In this document: positions 4,888-53,952 of the stretch, piece by piece
How positions within the stretch are numbered: the stretch's first letter is position 1
Layout of the letters: the number at the start of each line of letters is the position of its first letter
Position numbers and translations under genes: made by a program
From: Tistrella mobilis KA081020-065
Lineage (GTDB): Bacteria; Pseudomonadota; Alphaproteobacteria; Tistrellales; Tistrellaceae
Direction: 5' to 3'
NCBI RefSeq assembly: GCF_000264455.2
Contig: NC_017956.1
Location: 1,347,501 to 1,411,500, forward strand
DNA length: 64,000 nucleotides
The notes under the pieces: model-generated
What the model was told of the DNA's origin: nothing
What the model saw: the letters and a program-made list of their open reading frames with translations, nothing else
Databases searched by the model: none

Positions 4888-5872
<985 letters not shown>

Positions 5873-5880
<8 letters not shown>

Positions 5881-6823
5881 GGGATCTCCCTTCACCGGGG
5901 TCGGCACGATCGCGCTCAAGGAAGCGGCCGACCATATGACCGGGGCGCGGCTGCATCTGATCATGCTGCTCGTGCTGCTCACCGCCGCCGGCGCGCTTTA
6001 TGGCGCGATCGGCACCATCCGTGCCGGGGCCACCGACGACACGTTTCTGTTCCTGAAACTCTTCACCACCGCCCGCCAGCCGGTGCCGTCCTTTGCCGGG
6101 CTGCTCGGCTTCCTGCTGCCGCTGGTGGCGATCGCCCTCGGTTTCGATGCGATCAATGCCGAACACGGCCGGCGGACGATGAGCCGCCTGCTCGCCCAGC
6201 CGATCTATCGCGATGCGATCCTGTTCGGCAAATTCCTGGGCGGGCTGCTGGTGATCGCGGTGGCGATGGTGACGCTCTGGCTCGGCACCACGGGGCTCGG
6301 CATCCTGTTCCTGGGGCTGCCGCCCACGGGGGCTGAGGTGCTGCGCGGCCTGGCCTATCTGGTGGCGACCATCGCCTATGCCGGGGTCTGGCTGGCGCTG
6401 GCGATGACGCTGTCGACGGTGATCCGCTCCACCGCCACCTCGGCGCTGGCGGCACTCTCCATCTGGCTGGTGCTGTCGGTGTTCTGGGGCATGATCGCAC
6501 CGGTGGTCGCCTCGGCGATTTCGCCGGTCGATCCGCTGAACCCGATGTCGCTGATCGATGCCTTCCAGACCCAGCAGGCGGTGGCGCGGCTCTCGCCTCA
6601 GACGCTTTATGGCGAGATCACCGCCATCCTGCTGGACCCGGCGGCCCGGTCGGTGGGGCCGTTGTTCATCGACCAGCTGCGGGGCGCGCTGCTCGGCGCC
6701 CCGCTGCCGACGATCGAAAGCCTCGCCATCGTCTGGCCGCAGATGTCGGGGTTGATCGCCGCGATGATCCTGCTGTTCACCGCGGCTTACGTGCTGTTCC
6801 AGCGCCAGGAGATCAGGGCCTAG
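5873..6823 (+). CDS. ABC-2 type permease (NosY-like)
   Basis: A 316-residue inner-membrane protein with about six hydrophobic segments (for example [18 protein letters not shown] near the N-terminus and [14 protein letters not shown] at the C-terminus). The stretch [21 protein letters not shown] is typical of NosY-type ABC-2 permeases. The start at 5873 gives the usual overlap with the ATPase gene. It pairs with the preceding ATPase; the gene ends the trio and converges on the MFS gene. Confidence 0.87.
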
Positions 6824-46649: not shown

Positions 46650-46671
46650 CTGTTGCCGCAAGTTGCAACAG
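46650..46671 (+). terminator. Small hairpin after the SulP gene
   Basis: CTGTTGC-N8-GCAACAG, perfect 7-bp stem two bases after the stop codon. There is no T-run, so termination is only possible, not clear. Confidence 0.35.
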
Positions 46672-46793
46672 ACCACACGTGGCGATGCCTGGAGAACATC
46701 AATAATGTCGCCCTTGGAGCAGTGATCGTCACTGCAAGAGGGCGAGGAAACTGCACCTCGTCTTCGTTTCCACCGGAGAAGAAGGTGTCGATT

Positions 46794-48440
46794 ATGACGA
46801 ATACCATTGCGGACCTGAAGGCCCTTGCGGTCACGTCTTCCAACATGGAAGTCGAGGTGCTGGGCTACCACGCCGTTGCCGATGGCGGCGGCGGTCTGTT
46901 CGCCTGGCAGGCGGGTGCCACCGCCACCGATGACGGTGGACTCTGGATCGAAAGCACGGTCGCGACCGGCGGTCTCTGGCAGCGGATCGTGGACAGCGCC
47001 GCCCCGGTCAGCGTGCGCTGGTGGGGTGCCCGCGGCGATGGCAGCACCGACGACACCGCAGCCATCCAGGCGGCGCTGGATGCGGGTTTTTCCGCCGTGC
47101 ACCTGCCGGCCGGCACCTATCCCGTCTCGGCGACGCTGACCGTGCCGGCCGGTACGATCGTCACCGGTGACGGTTCGGGTGCCTTCCGTCCGGCCAATGC
47201 CCGCACCACCATCGTCAAGACCAATGGCGACACCGCCGGCGATGCGGTGATGGAGACGGGGCAGTCCTGCACCATCCGCGATCTGAAGCTGCAGCCGCAT
47301 AACGAGGCGGCGGTGACCTACGAACGTGCGGTCTATCCCTCCGGCACGGGCAACACCTCGATCGGTCTGCGGACCGGCTCGGCCAACACGGTCGAGGACG
47401 TGGTCTCCCAGGGGTTCGCCGATTCGGCGCTGGTTCTGGGCACCACCACCAAGGTGATGCGCTGCCACATCTTCCGCTCGCGCCGGGGCATCACCACCAG
47501 CGGCTCGGACGGCATGATCACCAACAGCGTGACCATGTTCTGCCACGAGGCGGGCATCCTGCTGACGACCAATTACTGGATCATCACCAGCTGCCGCATC
47601 GAATGGAATGCCACCTACGGCATCCAGTCGAACAGCGGCGAGCACACCTTCACCGCCAATCTGTTCGATCGCAACGGCTGGGCCGGCCTGTACCTGAACG
47701 GCGGCTGGGGCAATGTGGTCACCGGCAACTACTTCTCGCGCAACGGCGCCGGCGGCGACGGCAGCATGGGCCGCTGGAACTGGGCGATCCCGGGCCACAA
47801 CGCCTATCTGGCACCGCCGACCGTCGCCGACAGCTGCCATATCAAGATCTACTATCAGCGCGATTGCACCATTACCGGCAACCGCTATCGCGCTGGCGTC
47901 GATGACGGCGGCAGCGGCGCGATGGCACCGGCCTATGTCTACAACATGGATGGTACCGCGGGCGTCACCTCGAACATCACCATCTTCGCCAATGCCGGCG
48001 AAACCGCCTCGGGCGGCGGCTTCGGCGGCTATGCCGCCAGCTATCCGGGTGGGTCGGGTGTGTTCGGGGGCACCGACACCTCGGCACAGCAGCTGGTCTA
48101 TGGCCGGCCGGTGCGCCTGGGCTCGGTGACCATCCCCGGCATGTCGACGCCGCGTCAGCCCTATGGCCTGCCGCAGGCGGCCTCGGTCGACGTGCCGATC
48201 GGCACTGCGATCGGCGGGCGGATCAAGGTCTGGACCAATGCCTGGAACAGCACCCCGTCCTACGCGGAAGTCACCTTCGCCCGCGCCTCGGGCAGTGCGA
48301 CGACGGCCACGGTGGCGATCGACAACGTCATCGGCACCAATGTCAGCACCGCGGTCATTTCGACCGATCCCGCGGTCATGACGGTGACCTTCGCAGGCAC
48401 CCGCTTCTACAATCTCTCCTACGACCTGCACACGATGTGA
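46794..48440 (+). CDS. Right-handed beta-helix (pectate-lyase-3 type) protein
   Basis: A 548-residue protein with the pectate-lyase-3 start motif WWGARGDGSTDDTAAIQAAL (about 78-97) and many short turns of Gly/Asn/Thr-rich coils, as in tailspikes and polysaccharide lyases. No signal peptide is visible. A glycine-rich segment (GGGFGGYAASYPGGSG) precedes a C-terminal beta-domain. No phage genes surround it, so a host surface-polysaccharide or secreted role is likelier than a tail fibre. GGAGAAGAAGG precedes the ATG at 46794. Tail-to-tail with hxsA. Confidence 0.78.
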   Translation: MTNTIADLKALAVTSSNMEVEVLGYHAVADGGGGLFAWQAGATATDDGGLWIESTVATGGLWQRIVDSAAPVSVRWWGARGDGSTDDTAAIQAALDAGFSAVHLPAGTYPVSATLTVPAGTIVTGDGSGAFRPANARTTIVKTNGDTAGDAVMETGQSCTIRDLKLQPHNEAAVTYERAVYPSGTGNTSIGLRTGSANTVEDVVSQGFADSALVLGTTTKVMRCHIFRSRRGITTSGSDGMITNSVTMFCHEAGILLTTNYWIITSCRIEWNATYGIQSNSGEHTFTANLFDRNGWAGLYLNGGWGNVVTGNYFSRNGAGGDGSMGRWNWAIPGHNAYLAPPTVADSCHIKIYYQRDCTITGNRYRAGVDDGGSGAMAPAYVYNMDGTAGVTSNITIFANAGETASGGGFGGYAASYPGGSGVFGGTDTSAQQLVYGRPVRLGSVTIPGMSTPRQPYGLPQAASVDVPIGTAIGGRIKVWTNAWNSTPSYAEVTFARASGSATTATVAIDNVIGTNVSTAVISTDPAVMTVTFAGTRFYNLSYDLHTM

Positions 48441-48482: not shown

Positions 48483-49091
48483 TCACATGCCGGTGATGCC
48501 AAGCTTCACCAGCGTGTCGCCATCCAGTCGTCCGGTAACCGGCAGGCGGCTGTCGCCCTGGAAGGTTCTGATCGCAGATCTGGTCCTCTCTCCCAGAATG
48601 CCGTCCGCCGGCCCGGCATCATAGCCGCGGGCATTGAGGGCGATCTGCGCCCGCAGAACCATGTCGCGCAGCTCCTGACGGGTGGCCGCGACGGCATTGC
48701 CGGCCGCCGGGCCGGACGTGGTGGCCGAAGACCTGTTGCCGGAAGAGGTCTGGCCCGGTGCGGTGTAGAGCGGTGCCGTGTAGCTGGGGGCCGGGTAGGT
48801 CGGCACCGTATAGCCGGGCGTGCTGCGATAGCTGCTGGATGAATAGTGCGAGCGGTGGCTCGAATGGCTGCGATGGCTTGAATGGCTGCGGTGGCCGGCA
48901 AAGCGGTTCAGGCCGGCACCTGCCGCATCGAACGGGTTGTCGAATACGGGAACAGGCAGGCCTCCGTCCGGGCCGAATTCGGGTGCGGGGCCGCGCGCGG
49001 CAAGTGCCGGTTGTGGCAGAAGGCCTGACAGCATGGCCGGCAGGGACAGCCCCGCCAGAGCCGTGACGGTCTTTTTGATCAGACGGGACAT
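48483..49091 (-). CDS. hxsA: His-Xaa-Ser repeat protein HxsA (substrate of the Hxs system)
   Basis: A 202-residue exported protein. Signal peptide about 1-31 (ALAGLSLPAMLSGLLPQPALA); then a short linker; six consecutive His-Xaa-Ser tripeptides at residues 67-84 (HRS HSS HRS HSS HRS HYS); a Tyr/Pro/Thr stretch with YTVPTYPAPSYTAPLYTAP (about 94-112); a Ser/Gly linker; and a C-terminal peptidoglycan-binding-1-like domain (about 138-200, ALNARGYDAGPADGILGERT). This layout is that of HxsA of the His-Xaa-Ser system. The repeat is presumably modified by the two radical SAM enzymes before or after export. The start overlaps the hxsC stop by 13 bases. The nature of the modification is unknown to me. 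Confidence 0.88.
   Translation of the reverse strand: MSRLIKKTVTALAGLSLPAMLSGLLPQPALAARGPAPEFGPDGGLPVPVFDNPFDAAGAGLNRFAGHRSHSSHRSHSSHRSHYSSSSYRSTPGYTVPTYPAPSYTAPLYTAPGQTSSGNRSSATTSGPAAGNAVAATRQELRDMVLRAQIALNARGYDAGPADGILGERTRSAIRTFQGDSRLPVTGRLDGDTLVKLGITGM
48840..48893 (-). repeat. Coding repeat for six His-Xaa-Ser tripeptides
   Basis: 54 bases made of alternating CAY-CGC-AGC/TCG and CAT-TCN-AGC units, about 18-bp period, encoding HRS HSS three times with the last unit HYS. Synonymous differences between copies (AGC versus TCG, CAC versus CAT) show the peptide, not the DNA, is conserved. Confidence 0.85.
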
Positions 49092-50305
49092 GACGGTCCT
49101 GTTCCCTGATGGGCAGTTGGTGGCCAGTGATCGAACGGCCTGACATCGCGCCCGATCCATCGGGCGTCGGCCGAGGTGAAAAAGCCGGCGCAGTCCTGCC
49201 GGGCGGGGCAGGGGGCGCAGAGCGGCGCAAAATCGTTCTTCCAGTCCGAAATGGACGCCCGGGCGACGGCGAAAAGATCGGCAGGAAGCGCGCAGAGCGG
49301 CAGGTTGTAGATCGAGACCGTCATGCCCAGAGCCGTCAGCCGATGAACGGCGCGGGAGAGGGCATCGGCATAGTCGGCCGGATCGATCCAGATCTTCGCG
49401 CGATTGCGCCGGGCGAAGCCCATCGGCTCCAGCCCCATGAAAGCGATGTGGGCTGCAAAGGGCAGTGCGCGATAGATGAAGCGGGCAAGCGCTTCCAGAC
49501 GCGCCACGGTCTGTCGGGTCAGGACCACACGGATCTCCACCGTCGCGCCAATCGCTGCAAGATTGTACAGGCCCGCCATGGTCTCGGCGAAGGCGCCTTC
49601 GGCCTGCACCACATGGTCATGCAGGCTGGCGATGTCGCCATAAAGGGGGATGCCCCAGGTCACTGCCTCGGGGGCGGCACCGGCCATGGCGCGTGCCAGG
49701 CCGGGATCGGCGAAACGCCGGCCATTGCTCAGCACATGCAGGGAGGTCGCCGGCAGATGCCGGCGGGCGGTCCAGATCACCTCGATCAGGCCGTCATCGA
49801 GCAGGGTCGGCTCGCCGCCGGATATGCCGAGTTGGGTCTCTTCGGGGTCGATCAGCGTGATGATCCGCGTCAGATGTTCGACGCGGTGCGTGTCGTCGAC
49901 CTCACGCGGGGGCTGGGAGCACATGAGGCAGAGGCTGTTGCAGCGTTCCGTGGCGAGCAGTGTGTTCGCATGCGAGCCGCGCCGCCAGAGTATGGTGACG
50001 AGTCCGCCTTCAGGCGTGAGCCCGACGACGTCGCCCGGTGCCACCAGATCCCGTCGGCTTCCGCCGCCCCACCAGGGTCCTTCATAGCCGGTCGGTGGCG
50101 CGGCATGGCCGGCCCCGAAGACGCCGGCGGCGAGAGCCTCGACGCCGGCGGGAAGACGCCCGCCGGACAGATCATCCTGCCAGAGCAGACAGTGATCGAT
50201 TGGTACCCGGCCTGCGGCGAGGACATCGAGGTCCGCGATTTTGGCGACGTCGATGGCGACCGGAGGACCGGTGCGGATCAGGCGCTGATGCAGGGGCAGG
50301 GACAT
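49079..50305 (-). CDS. hxsC: Hxs system radical SAM maturase HxsC
   Basis: A 408-residue radical SAM enzyme. The [4Fe-4S] motif is CNSLCLMC (Cys122, Cys126, Cys129), the SAM contact region is GISGGEPTL, and an accessory cluster is likely at the C-terminus (Cys363, Cys366, Cys372, perhaps Cys406). The N-terminal ~110 residues form a separate domain. It lies 18 bases after hxsB and overlaps hxsA, so it is made together with its probable substrate. The RBS GGAGAGG is 9 bases from the ATG. Called HxsC by motif order, length and operon position. Confidence 0.88.
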   Translation of the reverse strand: MSLPLHQRLIRTGPPVAIDVAKIADLDVLAAGRVPIDHCLLWQDDLSGGRLPAGVEALAAGVFGAGHAAPPTGYEGPWWGGGSRRDLVAPGDVVGLTPEGGLVTILWRRGSHANTLLATERCNSLCLMCSQPPREVDDTHRVEHLTRIITLIDPEETQLGISGGEPTLLDDGLIEVIWTARRHLPATSLHVLSNGRRFADPGLARAMAGAAPEAVTWGIPLYGDIASLHDHVVQAEGAFAETMAGLYNLAAIGATVEIRVVLTRQTVARLEALARFIYRALPFAAHIAFMGLEPMGFARRNRAKIWIDPADYADALSRAVHRLTALGMTVSIYNLPLCALPADLFAVARASISDWKNDFAPLCAPCPARQDCAGFFTSADARWIGRDVRPFDHWPPTAHQGTGPSCPV

Positions 50306-50323
50306 GGCGTGCAGCCTCTCCGA

Positions 50324-51784
50324 TCAGTCGAGGCGGATGTTGCCGCTGAGATCGGCGGGCTGTCGTCGACCGACCCAGGCTGCGAAGATCCGGTTGACCT
50401 CGGGGTCGTTCGCTGCGATCCGGGCGAAGAGCAGGCGAAACAGCGCCTTGTGGCGCGCGCAGTGATCGCTGAAAGCGCGATGGCCCACCGGGTCGCCTTG
50501 CGTGGCCAGATGGTGAACCGGGTCATTGCCGCAATAGGGCAGAAAGGCGCAGCTCCAGCATCCGGGCAGGCTTTCCGCCAGACCGGCGGCGAGGAGGGCG
50601 CGGAGGGTGCCGCTGCCGGCAAGCTCCCGGAACGGCGTGTGAACGTCCCCGATCCTCAGCCGATGATCCCCGTTTGCCGCCAGCATCCGCGCCTCGTCCG
50701 AGACATAGACGCCGCCATCATGGTTATAGACCAGCACGCCGTGCCCGGCACCCGCGGGGGAGCGGAGATCGACATAGCCGCCGCCGAAGGGGGTGAGGAT
50801 GTGGGTCAACAGGATGGCGGCATAAGCTTCTTCGATGTGCCGGCCGGCACGGCAATGTTCGATGCAGCGATCGAGCGCCCGGCGATAGAATTCGATGAAG
50901 CCGGCGACGGACGGGGCGAGGCCGGGTTGGCGTCGGGCGAAGCCGTAGGGGGCGACCGGCCGCAGAAACACCGACCGGAAGCCGAGATCGACATAGGCGT
51001 CGACGACGTCGTCGGGCCGGTCCAGTGCATCGCCGGTGATGGTGGCAATCGCGGCAACGGCCTCCGCCCCCAGAATCTCGCGGGCGCGGTCCAGTGCGCG
51101 TCGGGTGGCATCGAACGCGCCACCGTCGGGCCGTCGGCGATGGCGGTCATGCAGCGCAGCCGGGCCGTCGATCGAGGTCGAGAGCGCGATTTCATGCTCC
51201 AGGCAGAAGCGAAGCATGTCGTGATCGAGGCGCTGCAGGGTGGAGACCATCGAGAAAGTGAGCGGTCGTCCGTCCGTTCCCGCGCGCTCCCGGGCAAGTG
51301 TCACGATCTGCCGGACCCGATCGAACGCCAGCGCCGGTTCGCCACCCTGGAATTCGATGGTGAGCGAGGGGGCGGGGCTTTCAAAGATCCGGTCGACCGC
51401 AGCTCGGGCCGTCTCTTCCGACATGTCGAAGCCGGCGGCGGAGGGGCCACGGCGCGAGACCTGGCAATAGTCGCAGGCATGGTCGCAGCGCAGCGTCACC
51501 ACGCAGATATGCAGCGACGGCCCCTCGGCGACGAAACGCTTCCGGGTCGCAAGCTGAGCGGCAGTGATCCGCATGGTGGTGGGGGCGAGCGGGTCGTGCA
51601 GGAAGCCACGGGCGAGCAGGTCGTCCCGGATATCGGGCGCGAGTTCGGCAGGATCCTCGATCAGGCGGCGGAAATCCGTCTGGCTCAGAAACGCGAAATC
51701 ACCACCATCATGGGTGACGAGAACCTGAGCCGGTGGGAAGGTCAGCCGCTCGAAACGCAGGGGCATGAGGTCGAGGCTGTTCAT
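50324..51784 (-). CDS. hxsB: Hxs system radical SAM maturase HxsB
   Basis: A 486-residue radical SAM enzyme with a C-terminal SPASM-like extension. Core motif CDHACDYC (Cys100, Cys104, Cys107), FQGGEPAL (about 145-152), and C-terminal cysteines 409, 412, 418 and 442 (GCWSCAFLPYC ... HC) for auxiliary iron-sulfur clusters. This is the arrangement of peptide-modifying maturases. The N-terminal ~90 residues may bind substrate. It overlaps hxsD by 4 bases (ATGA). Its reaction on HxsA is inferred from the operon. Confidence 0.9.
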   Translation of the reverse strand: MNSLDLMPLRFERLTFPPAQVLVTHDGGDFAFLSQTDFRRLIEDPAELAPDIRDDLLARGFLHDPLAPTTMRITAAQLATRKRFVAEGPSLHICVVTLRCDHACDYCQVSRRGPSAAGFDMSEETARAAVDRIFESPAPSLTIEFQGGEPALAFDRVRQIVTLARERAGTDGRPLTFSMVSTLQRLDHDMLRFCLEHEIALSTSIDGPAALHDRHRRRPDGGAFDATRRALDRAREILGAEAVAAIATITGDALDRPDDVVDAYVDLGFRSVFLRPVAPYGFARRQPGLAPSVAGFIEFYRRALDRCIEHCRAGRHIEEAYAAILLTHILTPFGGGYVDLRSPAGAGHGVLVYNHDGGVYVSDEARMLAANGDHRLRIGDVHTPFRELAGSGTLRALLAAGLAESLPGCWSCAFLPYCGNDPVHHLATQGDPVGHRAFSDHCARHKALFRLLFARIAANDPEVNRIFAAWVGRRQPADLSGNIRLD

Positions 51785-52113
51785 CCTGGTATCAGCGCAG
51801 CCATGGCCGTCCTGAAAACGGCGTCGCGCATCCCGGCAGTGCGATCACGCAACATGACCCGCAGGGATTGATCTGTCAGTCGTTCCAGAAAGCGGGCGAT
51901 GAGTGCTGCATCCACCGGCACCCCATCGGGGAGCCTGCGGGCGAAGGCCACCAGCCGGGTGTCCTCAGGTGCGTCGGGCACCAGCCAGATCAGCGCGTCC
52001 GCCGCCATTTCATAGGCGGTGTGAAGAACGGCTTCGGCTGGATAGGCGATGTCGAGCCGGAGAAGTTGCTCCGGCTCGACGGTCGTTGCGATCTTGCTGG
52101 CGGGTGAAGGCAT
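51781..52113 (-). CDS. hxsD: Hxs system small protein HxsD
   Basis: A 110-residue soluble protein, first gene of the hxs operon, with a YPAEAVLHTAYEMAADALIW core (about 24-43) and an Arg-rich C-terminus (LRVMLRDRTAGMRDAVFRTA). Length and position match HxsD. A role as a carrier or recognition partner for the radical SAM enzymes is a guess. The 113 bases upstream (52114-52226) are unusually AT-rich for this window and must hold the operon promoter; no clear -10/-35 pair was found. Confidence 0.8.
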   Translation of the reverse strand: MPSPASKIATTVEPEQLLRLDIAYPAEAVLHTAYEMAADALIWLVPDAPEDTRLVAFARRLPDGVPVDAALIARFLERLTDQSLRVMLRDRTAGMRDAVFRTAMAALIPG

Positions 52114-52226: not shown

Positions 52227-53711
52227 TCACCGCGCCAGTACCGTCGCGGCCTGTTTGGTGGTCTGAACCGCGCCGGCGACGCGGCTGACCGCGTCGGTGA
52301 TGCCGTCCAGGCTGCGGGTGACGGTGTCGACTGCGGCGGCGGTGGTGTGCATATTGGCCGACAGGTCGCGGGTGACGACGCTCTGTTCCTCGACCGCGGC
52401 CGCGGTGGTGGTGACATGGTCGCGGACGGTGAGGATCGAGCCGCGGATGGTGCGCAGCGCTTCCGCCACCTCGCCCGACAGCCCCTGCATGCCTTCGATT
52501 TCGGTCGAGATGCGGGTGGTGGCGTCGGCCGACTGGTTGGCGAGGGTCTTGACCTCGGTTGCGACCACCGCGAAGCCGCGGCCGGCCTCGCCCGCGCGGG
52601 CGGCTTCGATCGTGGCGTTGAGCGCGAGCAGGTTGATCTGGCCGGCAATGCCGCGGATCACCTCGACCACGCCCTCCATCGAGCGGGCGACACCGTCCAG
52701 GCGCTGGGCGGCCTCGTCGGCGCGCGTGGCCCGGTCGACCGCGCCATCGGTCGCTTCCCGCGACTTCACCATGCTCTGCGAAATCTCGGCGATCGAGGCT
52801 GCCAGTTCTTCCGTCCCCGCCACCATCATCTGAACCGCGCCGCTGGTCTGGCCGGCGGCCGTGGCGGCCGCGCCGGCCTCGTTGGTGGAGCGGTCGACCG
52901 CGTGGTCGATCTCGGCGAAATTGTTGTCGATCAGAGTCTTGAGATCGGTCAGCATGCCGATCTGCCGGGTGATGTCGGTGGCGTATTTCACCACCTTCAT
53001 CGGCCGGCCATCGGCATCCAGGATCGGGTTGTACGAGGCCTCGATCCAGACCGTACGGCCGCCCTTGCCGATGCGCTTGAACTGCCGGGCCTGGTACTCG
53101 CCGCGCCGCAGCGCCGTCCAGAATGCCTTGTAGTCCGCCGAGTCCCGTTCGGCGGGCTCTACGAACATGGCATGCTGGCGGCCCTGGATTTCGTCCAGGC
53201 GATAGCCGATGACGTTCAGGAAATTGTCGTTCGCCCACAGGACCTTGCCGTCCAGGTCGAACTCGATCACGGCCAGCGCCTTGCGGATCGCCCGCATCTG
53301 CCCGTCGAGGTCGGCGGCCGCGGTCTTCTCGGCGGTGATGTCGGTGGCGTATTTGACCACCTTCACCGGCCGGCCCGCGCCATCGAGCACCGGGTTGTAC
53401 GAGGCCTCGATCCAGACGACCTTGCCGCCCTTGCCGATCCGGCGAAACTGACGTGCCTGATACTCGCCCCGGCGCAGCGCGTCCCAGAAGGCGGTATAGG
53501 CCGGGCTCTCGCGCTCCGCCACATCCACCAGCATGCGGTGGTTCTGGCCCTTGATCTCGTCGAGCGTATAGCCGACGAGGGTCAGGAAATTGGCGTTGGC
53601 ATCGAGTATCCGGCCATCCATATCAAACGTGATCATGGCCTGGGAGCGGTTGATGGCGGCAATCACTGCCTCGGCATCGCTCCGTCGACGCGGCGACAGG
53701 AAATCGAACAT
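52227..53711 (-). CDS. Soluble methyl-accepting chemotaxis protein with two PAS domains
   Basis: A 494-residue cytoplasmic chemoreceptor without membrane helices or HAMP. PAS1 (about 18-125) and PAS2 (about 140-247) are near duplicates, both with [10 protein letters not shown] and a WIEASYNP strand; the signalling domain (about 260-490) has the hairpin tip [23 protein letters not shown] domains of this type often bind heme or flavin and sense oxygen or redox. GAGGG before the ATG at 53711 supports the start over an in-frame GTG at 53726. Confidence 0.92.
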
Positions 53712-53952
53712 GTGGTCGTCCCTCACGATCTGGGCTTTGATGGTCTGTACGACATCTTTGACGGTGCCCCGGGTCTGGGTCGCGAAGGTTGAAGGGAAGT
53801 CTCATCTTCGCAGCGCATCTATGAAACAGGTGCGGAGCAGGCGTGAGGACATGATGACGCTGATCATCTTAAATTTTCATTAGCAACAGCCGCCGACTGT
53901 TCTGAATTTTCAGCGGTAACGCAAAATGCACCAGTTCATCAACCGAAAGAAG

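Follow-up and report, generated by a model that had tools for sequence, protein, structure and literature searches.

The closest described systems

His-Xaa-Ser (Hxs) systems are described in NCBIfam by four profiles, TIGR03979 (HxsA), TIGR03978 (HxsB), TIGR03977 (HxsC) and TIGR03976 (HxsD). Here we analyze the Hxs locus in a 64,000-nucleotide stretch of Tistrella mobilis KA081020-065 (NC_017956.1, positions 1,347,501 to 1,411,500; hereafter the window), which shares the same four genes and the H-x-S tract. Its order D-B-C-A is that of the Pseudomonas and Stenotrophomonas Hxs loci, with the differences that its HxsD scores under the family cut-off and its HxsA is of the long, peptidoglycan-binding kind. 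The initial annotation, made from the letters alone, had read a complete His-Xaa-Ser maturation operon at 48483-52113 on the minus strand, and the curated profiles together with the same gene set in other genomes support this identity. All four open reading frames (ORFs) lie at the positions it gave; a profile search placed HxsA, HxsB and HxsC over their curated cut-offs but HxsD below its own. By these matches we assign the region to the named system as its hxsDBCA operon, and it seems fair to count the set as complete with a divergent HxsD.

The system has been named for years. A clustering paper credits Haft and Basu for Hxs and calls the maturation putative (PMC9062424), and brief mentions occur in a Pseudomonas genome paper (PMC8446631) and a Vibrio paper (PMC6537148). 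These passages give no Hxs product or HxsB chemistry, and in the open-licence literature searched we found neither these nor a modification of HxsA by HxsB or HxsC reported for any member. The gene set is already known; the chemistry predicted for HxsB is new here.

Two groups of maturases come closest. The triceptide maturases (HaaB, YhhB, FxsB/MscB, GrrM/OscB and XyeB) are, like HxsB, SPASM-type radical S-adenosylmethionine (SAM) enzymes without the cysteines of auxiliary cluster I (AuxI). Their substrates pair an aromatic residue with the residue at i+2, with published examples for His and for Ser, and the H-x-S tract fits this motif. HxsB lies outside their clade, so that we propose it works like them but do not file it as a member. 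Hxs also differs from triceptide systems by its second radical SAM enzyme, by HxsD and by its substrate, which is large and exported where theirs is a short precursor. In sequence and tree, on the other hand, HxsB is nearest to the QhpD/PeaB, Nif11 and PapB maturases (node support only 94/85). Unlike HxsB, QhpD (4/4), Nif11 (1/1) and, as published, PapB keep AuxI, and PapB links a Cys sulfur, of which HxsA has none.

Auxiliary cluster I cysteines are missing from HxsB

Seven cysteines are invariant in 31/31 aligned HxsB, comprising the SAM cluster and auxiliary cluster II sets. Both motifs singled out by the initial annotation, CDHACDYC in HxsB and CNSLCLMC in HxsC, were found, and the extra C-terminal cysteines it mentioned proved to be four more invariant residues in each enzyme (31/31 HxsB, 38/38 HxsC aligned). 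In HxsB these are spaced as the AC2 set of PapB (C408, C411, C417, C440). At all three sites of the AuxI cysteines, which correspond to AC1 of PapB, cysteine is missing in 31/31 HxsB; position 362 is Ser in 26, Thr in 3 and Ala in 2, and position 422 is Pro in all 31.

We compared these sites with 26 other SPASM-type enzymes from genomes and plasmids. The AuxI cysteines are also missing at the three sites in 11 of 11 members of cyclophane-forming families (GrrM 3, XyeB 1, YhhB 4, HaaB 1, FxsB 2), a status that follows NCBI naming; one of the two FxsB is annotated without the word cyclophane and passes TIGR04269 with 478 bits against a cut-off of 370. They are kept in 15/15 others (AnSME 5, QhpD 4, and one each of Nif11, DarE, CtpM, CbpB, an AnSME-like and an unnamed enzyme), as well as in 8/8 further sub-cut-off matches of the PapB profile. 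Omitted from the comparison were a YhhB whose C-terminal end leaves the family near an insertion sequence (L134), one QhpD (L117) and two AnSME (L122, L124); L160 is the same protein as L115. FxsB had been sought in 120 genomes, controls included, with no match, and was later found on plasmids. By eye, the AuxI-less enzymes except GrrM have D-x-[LA]-[RK] at the AuxI place, in the forms DEAR (HxsB), DTLR (XyeB, HaaB), DVLK or DTLR (YhhB) and DELK or DTLK (FxsB).

The loss of AuxI in HxsB, common to the sampled cyclophane-forming families, is a new observation of this analysis, and its absence as a sign of cyclophane formation is a criterion found here, not a published definition. The initial annotation had proposed that HxsB and HxsC act on the His/Ser tract; we infer the same, and the cluster signature that HxsB shares with these families sharpens the proposal.

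The His-x-Ser tract of HxsA is conserved at two of three positions

Relatives were collected by scanning named genomes with an HxsC alignment, which matched 326 stretches, 256 of them encoding a relative. The best 80 of these 256 were kept, so that the counts below apply to the closest portion of the family. Adding the window and five other loci brings the set to 86, two of them duplicates because L015/L088 and L019/L098 are the same contigs twice. In 81 loci an HxsA was recognized by three H-x-S in a row, a rule under which L078, L090, L091, L097 and L100 have none.

In the window, HxsA consists of a signal peptide (by eye), the residues FAG, the six unbroken tripeptides that had been reported (HRS, HSS, HRS, HSS, HRS and HYS), a Tyr/Pro/Ser-rich linker and a PG_binding_1 domain; the 202-residue protein contains no Cys. 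The PG_binding_1 match confirms the peptidoglycan-binding-like domain of the initial annotation, and together with the signal peptide it fits an exported, peptidoglycan-binding HxsA. No other run of at least two H-x-S units occurs in any of the window's six frames, and when the 225 residues were shuffled 20,000 times, no run exceeded 2. Its Ser codons (AGY 4, TCN 2) are mixed, so the tract is not simply a fresh DNA duplication.

Across the 81 HxsA the longest run has 5 units in 5, 6 in 64, 7 in 10, 8 in 1 and 9 in 1. A unit in which only His or only Ser is lost while the run continues occurs in 0/81; as the three-in-a-row rule itself selects for H and S, it accounts in part for their invariance within a run, whereas the lack of such single-unit breaks does not follow from it. 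The middle position varies freely (71 distinct tracts: S 200, R 148, Y 59, A 18, T 3, M 2, Q 2, V 2, G 1), and 63/71 tracts use both AGY and TCN Ser codons. The kept H and S, varying middle residue and mixed codons indicate that selection acts on the H at i and the S at i+2. We also looked for His replaced in register by Tyr or Phe inside the tract and rejected this variant (0/81). In-register aromatic-x-S triplets occur only downstream of it (YYS 26, YRS 2 and YSS 1 within four units) and may be chance in a Tyr/Ser-rich linker.

The first unit is preceded by a hydrophobic or aromatic residue, Ala and one more residue (YAA, YAG, FAG) in 74/81 HxsA, possibly a recognition element. More than 60 residues follow the first tract in 67/81, including the window, and at most 20 in 14/81; in those loci with a short HxsA that were inspected, hxsA leads the operon.

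HxsB as a candidate His-Ser cyclophane synthase

We consider it rather probable, by analogy with characterized enzymes, that HxsB forms a His-Ser cyclophane in the H-x-S units, because its tail is AuxI-less, His and Ser are strict while the middle residue varies freely, Cys is lacking and there are published precedents. Three-residue cyclophanes from i to i+2 have been described with Phe C4-Cbeta(Ser) bonds made by MscB, with His C2-Cbeta(Ala) bonds made by HaaB and ScaB and with His C2-Cbeta(Arg) bonds made by YhhB (PMC11002830). The H-x-S unit unites both halves of these precedents, a linked His and a linked Ser.

Gene identities, cysteine signatures, repeat conservation and the phyletic pattern are observed here; the following model adds the bond, the order of events, the location and the role as inferences. 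HxsA would be synthesized as a protein with a signal peptide, the tract of six H-x-S units and, at its C-terminal end, a peptidoglycan-binding domain. HxsB, presumably carrying auxiliary cluster II only, would act before export: it would abstract a hydrogen from the Ser beta-carbon of a unit and bond this carbon to the imidazole, probably at C2, of the His two residues earlier, giving a three-residue cyclophane with loss of two hydrogens (-2.016 Da) per unit. Repetition along the tract would produce a stiff row of cyclophanes. HxsC, with one putative auxiliary cluster of its own, would make a second change, and HxsD probably assists. The modified HxsA, once exported, would be retained at the cell wall and may bind metal there.

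The relationship of HxsB to PapB, its top outside NCBIfam match at 105 bits, might suggest a thioether system of the sactipeptide or ranthipeptide type. Cys thioether chemistry was rejected, since no Cys donor lies in or near the tract: HxsA read from 49091 has no Cys, and none occurs within 40 residues of the tract in 81 HxsA. Moreover, HxsB is without AuxI, which PapB needs, as evidenced by a PapB AC1 variant that forms no cross-link, its thioether abolished (PMC10470005). We therefore give such a system hardly any probability. A change of single residues by HxsB and HxsC, such as Ser oxidation to formylglycine or aminomalonate, hydroxylation or alpha-carbon inversion, deserves more weight, although we regard it as unlikely. 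HxsB is detectably related to AnSME (E 4e-19), for which NCBI annotation gives peptidyl-serine modification, a strict Ser would suit chemistry at the hydroxyl carbon, and one publication is titled for aminomalonate formation by a peptide-modifying radical SAM enzyme. However, His is equally strict and always stands two residues before Ser, which single-residue Ser chemistry would not require, and the sampled AnSME keep AuxI (5/5, plus 1/1 similar) while HxsB is without it.

Exported His-rich proteins frequently bind metal, and a peptidoglycan-binding domain would suit a wall scavenger or sensor. The tract might thus be an unmodified or lightly modified metal-binding His ladder, with HxsB and HxsC acting elsewhere on HxsA or on another target. 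This we find quite improbable: His is never replaced in a running tract (81 HxsA), although a metal site could also be built from Cys, Asp, Glu or Met; the idea gives no reason for the strict Ser; and almost every locus has two radical SAM genes along with HxsA (HxsB in 85/86; the exception, L091, is cut by a contig end).

Several observations weigh against the cyclophane proposal. The precedents, as published, tolerate a varied third residue, whereas Hxs demands Ser. SuiB, a C-C former, passes an electron to AuxI (PMC9012708), so an AuxI-less enzyme needs another acceptor. The parts played by HxsC and HxsD are not explained by a cyclophane, and the comparison set of 26 enzymes is small, rich in plasmid-borne members and labelled from annotation. 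By profile, the nearest outside matches of HxsB are PapB (thioether), Nif11 and QhpD. In a maximum-likelihood tree of 43 rows, with 17 of the 31 HxsB, HxsB forms one clade (100/100), placed closer to QhpD/Nif11 than to the cyclophane formers, though without firm support (94/85); several long end branches make this tree a guide. The AuxI state requires three changes on it, and a single clade of all 28 AuxI-less rows is rejected (approximately unbiased test, p 0.00586). The nearest outside relative of HxsB, the enzyme of locus L020 (277 bits to TIGR03978, under the cut-off), keeps the AuxI cysteines and directly follows a 136-aa ORF with FTDNFTDNYSDNDHYTDSYTNSNG. This ORF, without a Pfam match, looks like an aromatic-x-Asp/Asn repeat substrate, and the locus, with no adjoining hxsA or hxsC, is possibly an uncharacterised peptide system. 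Should this pair form such cyclophanes, the loss of AuxI would not be what decides the chemistry.

Taking both sides together, our wider proposal is tentative, and we would place it just short of probable. HxsB would be an independently arisen three-residue-cyclophane synthase that lost AuxI in parallel with GrrM and XyeB/YhhB/HaaB/FxsB, turning an exported cell-wall protein, in place of a small natural product, into a rigid His-Ser cyclophane row, perhaps tuned as a metal-binding ladder. If true, AuxI loss would be a sequence mark predicting cyclophane chemistry, and radical SAM peptide chemistry would serve a conserved envelope protein and not only small secreted peptides.

HxsC and HxsD

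The four C-terminal cysteines of HxsC would suffice for one auxiliary cluster, to which they are predicted to bind. An AlphaFold2 model (predicted local distance difference test score, pLDDT, 88.7) shows a beta-rich N-terminal region followed by a radical SAM core. The best Foldseek match is SkfB (E 2.4e-8), and VIA-align pairs the model with viperin (Z 16.0, root mean square deviation (rmsd) 3.3, 215 aligned). As SkfB, viperin, AnSME and many others resemble the core at similar scores, the fold does not reveal the reaction.

When 67 other HxsD were made into a profile that excluded the window and the same-species locus, the search recovered the window HxsD at E 2.6e-8, with the runner-up at 0.43. 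Its model (pLDDT 80) has the order strand-helix-strand-strand-helix. In fold searches we found no support for HxsD as a recognition element of ribosomally synthesized and post-translationally modified peptides: the best Foldseek match has E 0.3, and the best VIA-align match is a designed protein (Z 6.2, rmsd 2.2, 60 aligned). HxsD is present in 73/86 loci. Nine of the 82 loci with an intact region upstream of hxsB show none in a filter-free six-frame search (nothing better than E 3), all in Caulobacteraceae or Roseomonas-like genomes; the other 4 of the 13 loci without HxsD reach a contig end in or close to hxsB. Judged by these gene contents, HxsD appears dispensable in some lineages, and because several lack it, its part is probably an assisting one.

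Distribution and plasmid-borne loci

The Hxs system has a patchy spread. HxsB was found at E 1e-60 or better in 7/385 sampled genomes of the class, in 5/385 over the cut-off, and HxsC over the cut-off in 15/398 sampled Pseudomonadota genomes; 14 control genomes gave no HxsB or HxsC match in either search. Almost every cluster of neighbouring ORFs belongs to Pseudomonas or Stenotrophomonas alone; the rest are small mixed sets with no clear partner. A conserved extra partner gene was thus rejected, with no gene recurring across lineages and no conserved neighbour pointing to a role, such as the metal or redox activity that the initial annotation had suggested.

The hxs set also occurs on plasmids, including a conjugative Klebsiella plasmid, which makes its role of practical interest. 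On the IncF plasmid pKN-LS6 of Klebsiella pneumoniae (NC_021654; L127/L150), hxsDBCA lies between IS1 and IS66-type genes with catA1 and an integron nearby, and the annotated hxsD starts at the end of the IS1 gene. Plasmid records matching the window HxsB number 497, not all of them HxsB, and 321 are from Klebsiella. Plasmids of Agrobacterium (L128), Mesorhizobium (L130) and Roseomonas mucosa (L151) carry hxsB-hxsC-hxsA without an annotated hxsD, the third gene of L151 being annotated as peptidoglycan-binding protein only. The Klebsiella and Roseomonas plasmid neighbourhoods contain resistance genes, insertion sequences and transport genes, and no metal gene tied to hxs except a chromate transporter about 11 kb off, inside a resistance island. 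A Calothrix plasmid (L129, 6285-7013) encodes a cyanobacterial HxsA-like protein with HGS then HSS units plus HYS and a different C-terminal part; it has no NCBIfam match at E 1e-20 and adjoins HxsB, HxsC and HxsD-like genes. In one uncultured alphaproteobacterial genome (L019/L098) hxsB is split over two overlapping frames, either by a frameshift or by a sequencing error.

Gene organization in the window

The 4-base overlap of hxsD and hxsB noted initially is seen, and the 13-base overlap of hxsC and hxsA holds if HxsA starts at ATG 49091, which has AGGA 5 bases before and a signal peptide (by eye) after it, and not at the first ATG, 49160 (Table 1). Relative to a same-species genome the four genes are under purifying selection, with ratios of nonsynonymous to synonymous substitution between the two operons of 0.075 (HxsA), 0.103 (HxsB), 0.177 (HxsD) and 0.234 (HxsC). 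The genome itself has one HxsA and a single HxsC over the cut-off, five weaker HxsC matches being other radical SAM proteins.

Table 1. Positions of hxs features in the window and of the gene pair in L020 (genome G091; numbered within L020).
Feature	Positions	Strand	Evidence
hxsD, small protein, 110 aa	51781..52113	-	TIGR03976, 35 bits, under cut-off 50
hxsB, radical SAM/SPASM-type enzyme, 486 aa	50324..51784	-	TIGR03978, 522 bits, cut-off 370
HxsB SAM-cluster motif C100-x3-C104-x2-C107	51464..51487	-	invariant 31/31
HxsB 362-368, SDEARML, place of Cys in AuxI-bearing SPASM enzymes	50681..50701	-	alignment
HxsB C409, C412, C418, C442 (auxiliary cluster II set); P422 replaces AuxI Cys	50459..50560	-	31/31
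hxsC, radical SAM enzyme with beta-rich N-terminal domain, 408 aa	49079..50305	-	TIGR03977, 372.8 bits, cut-off 267.9
HxsC SAM-cluster motif C122-x3-C126-x2-C129	49919..49942	-	38/38
HxsC C338, C363, C366, C372	49190..49294	-	38/38
hxsA from likely start, 202 aa	48483..49091	-	TIGR03979, 135.4 bits, cut-off 121.65
Probable HxsA signal peptide, MSRLIKK...QPALA	48999..49091	-	by eye from translation
Six H-x-S units, HRSHSSHRSHSSHRSHYS	48840..48893	-	read from sequence
PG_binding_1 domain of HxsA	48501..48662	-	PF01471, 59.4 bits, cut-off 23
L020 ORF, 136 aa	4776-5186
L020 radical SAM enzyme	5235-6659

A gene for a PAS-PAS-methyl-accepting-chemotaxis protein (52227-53726, minus strand) is found 113 bases upstream of hxsD in the same orientation; the two might be cotranscribed. 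On the other side, a beta-helix protein with Pectate-lyase-like and NosD-like Pfam matches (46653-48440, plus strand) is encoded convergently with hxsA.

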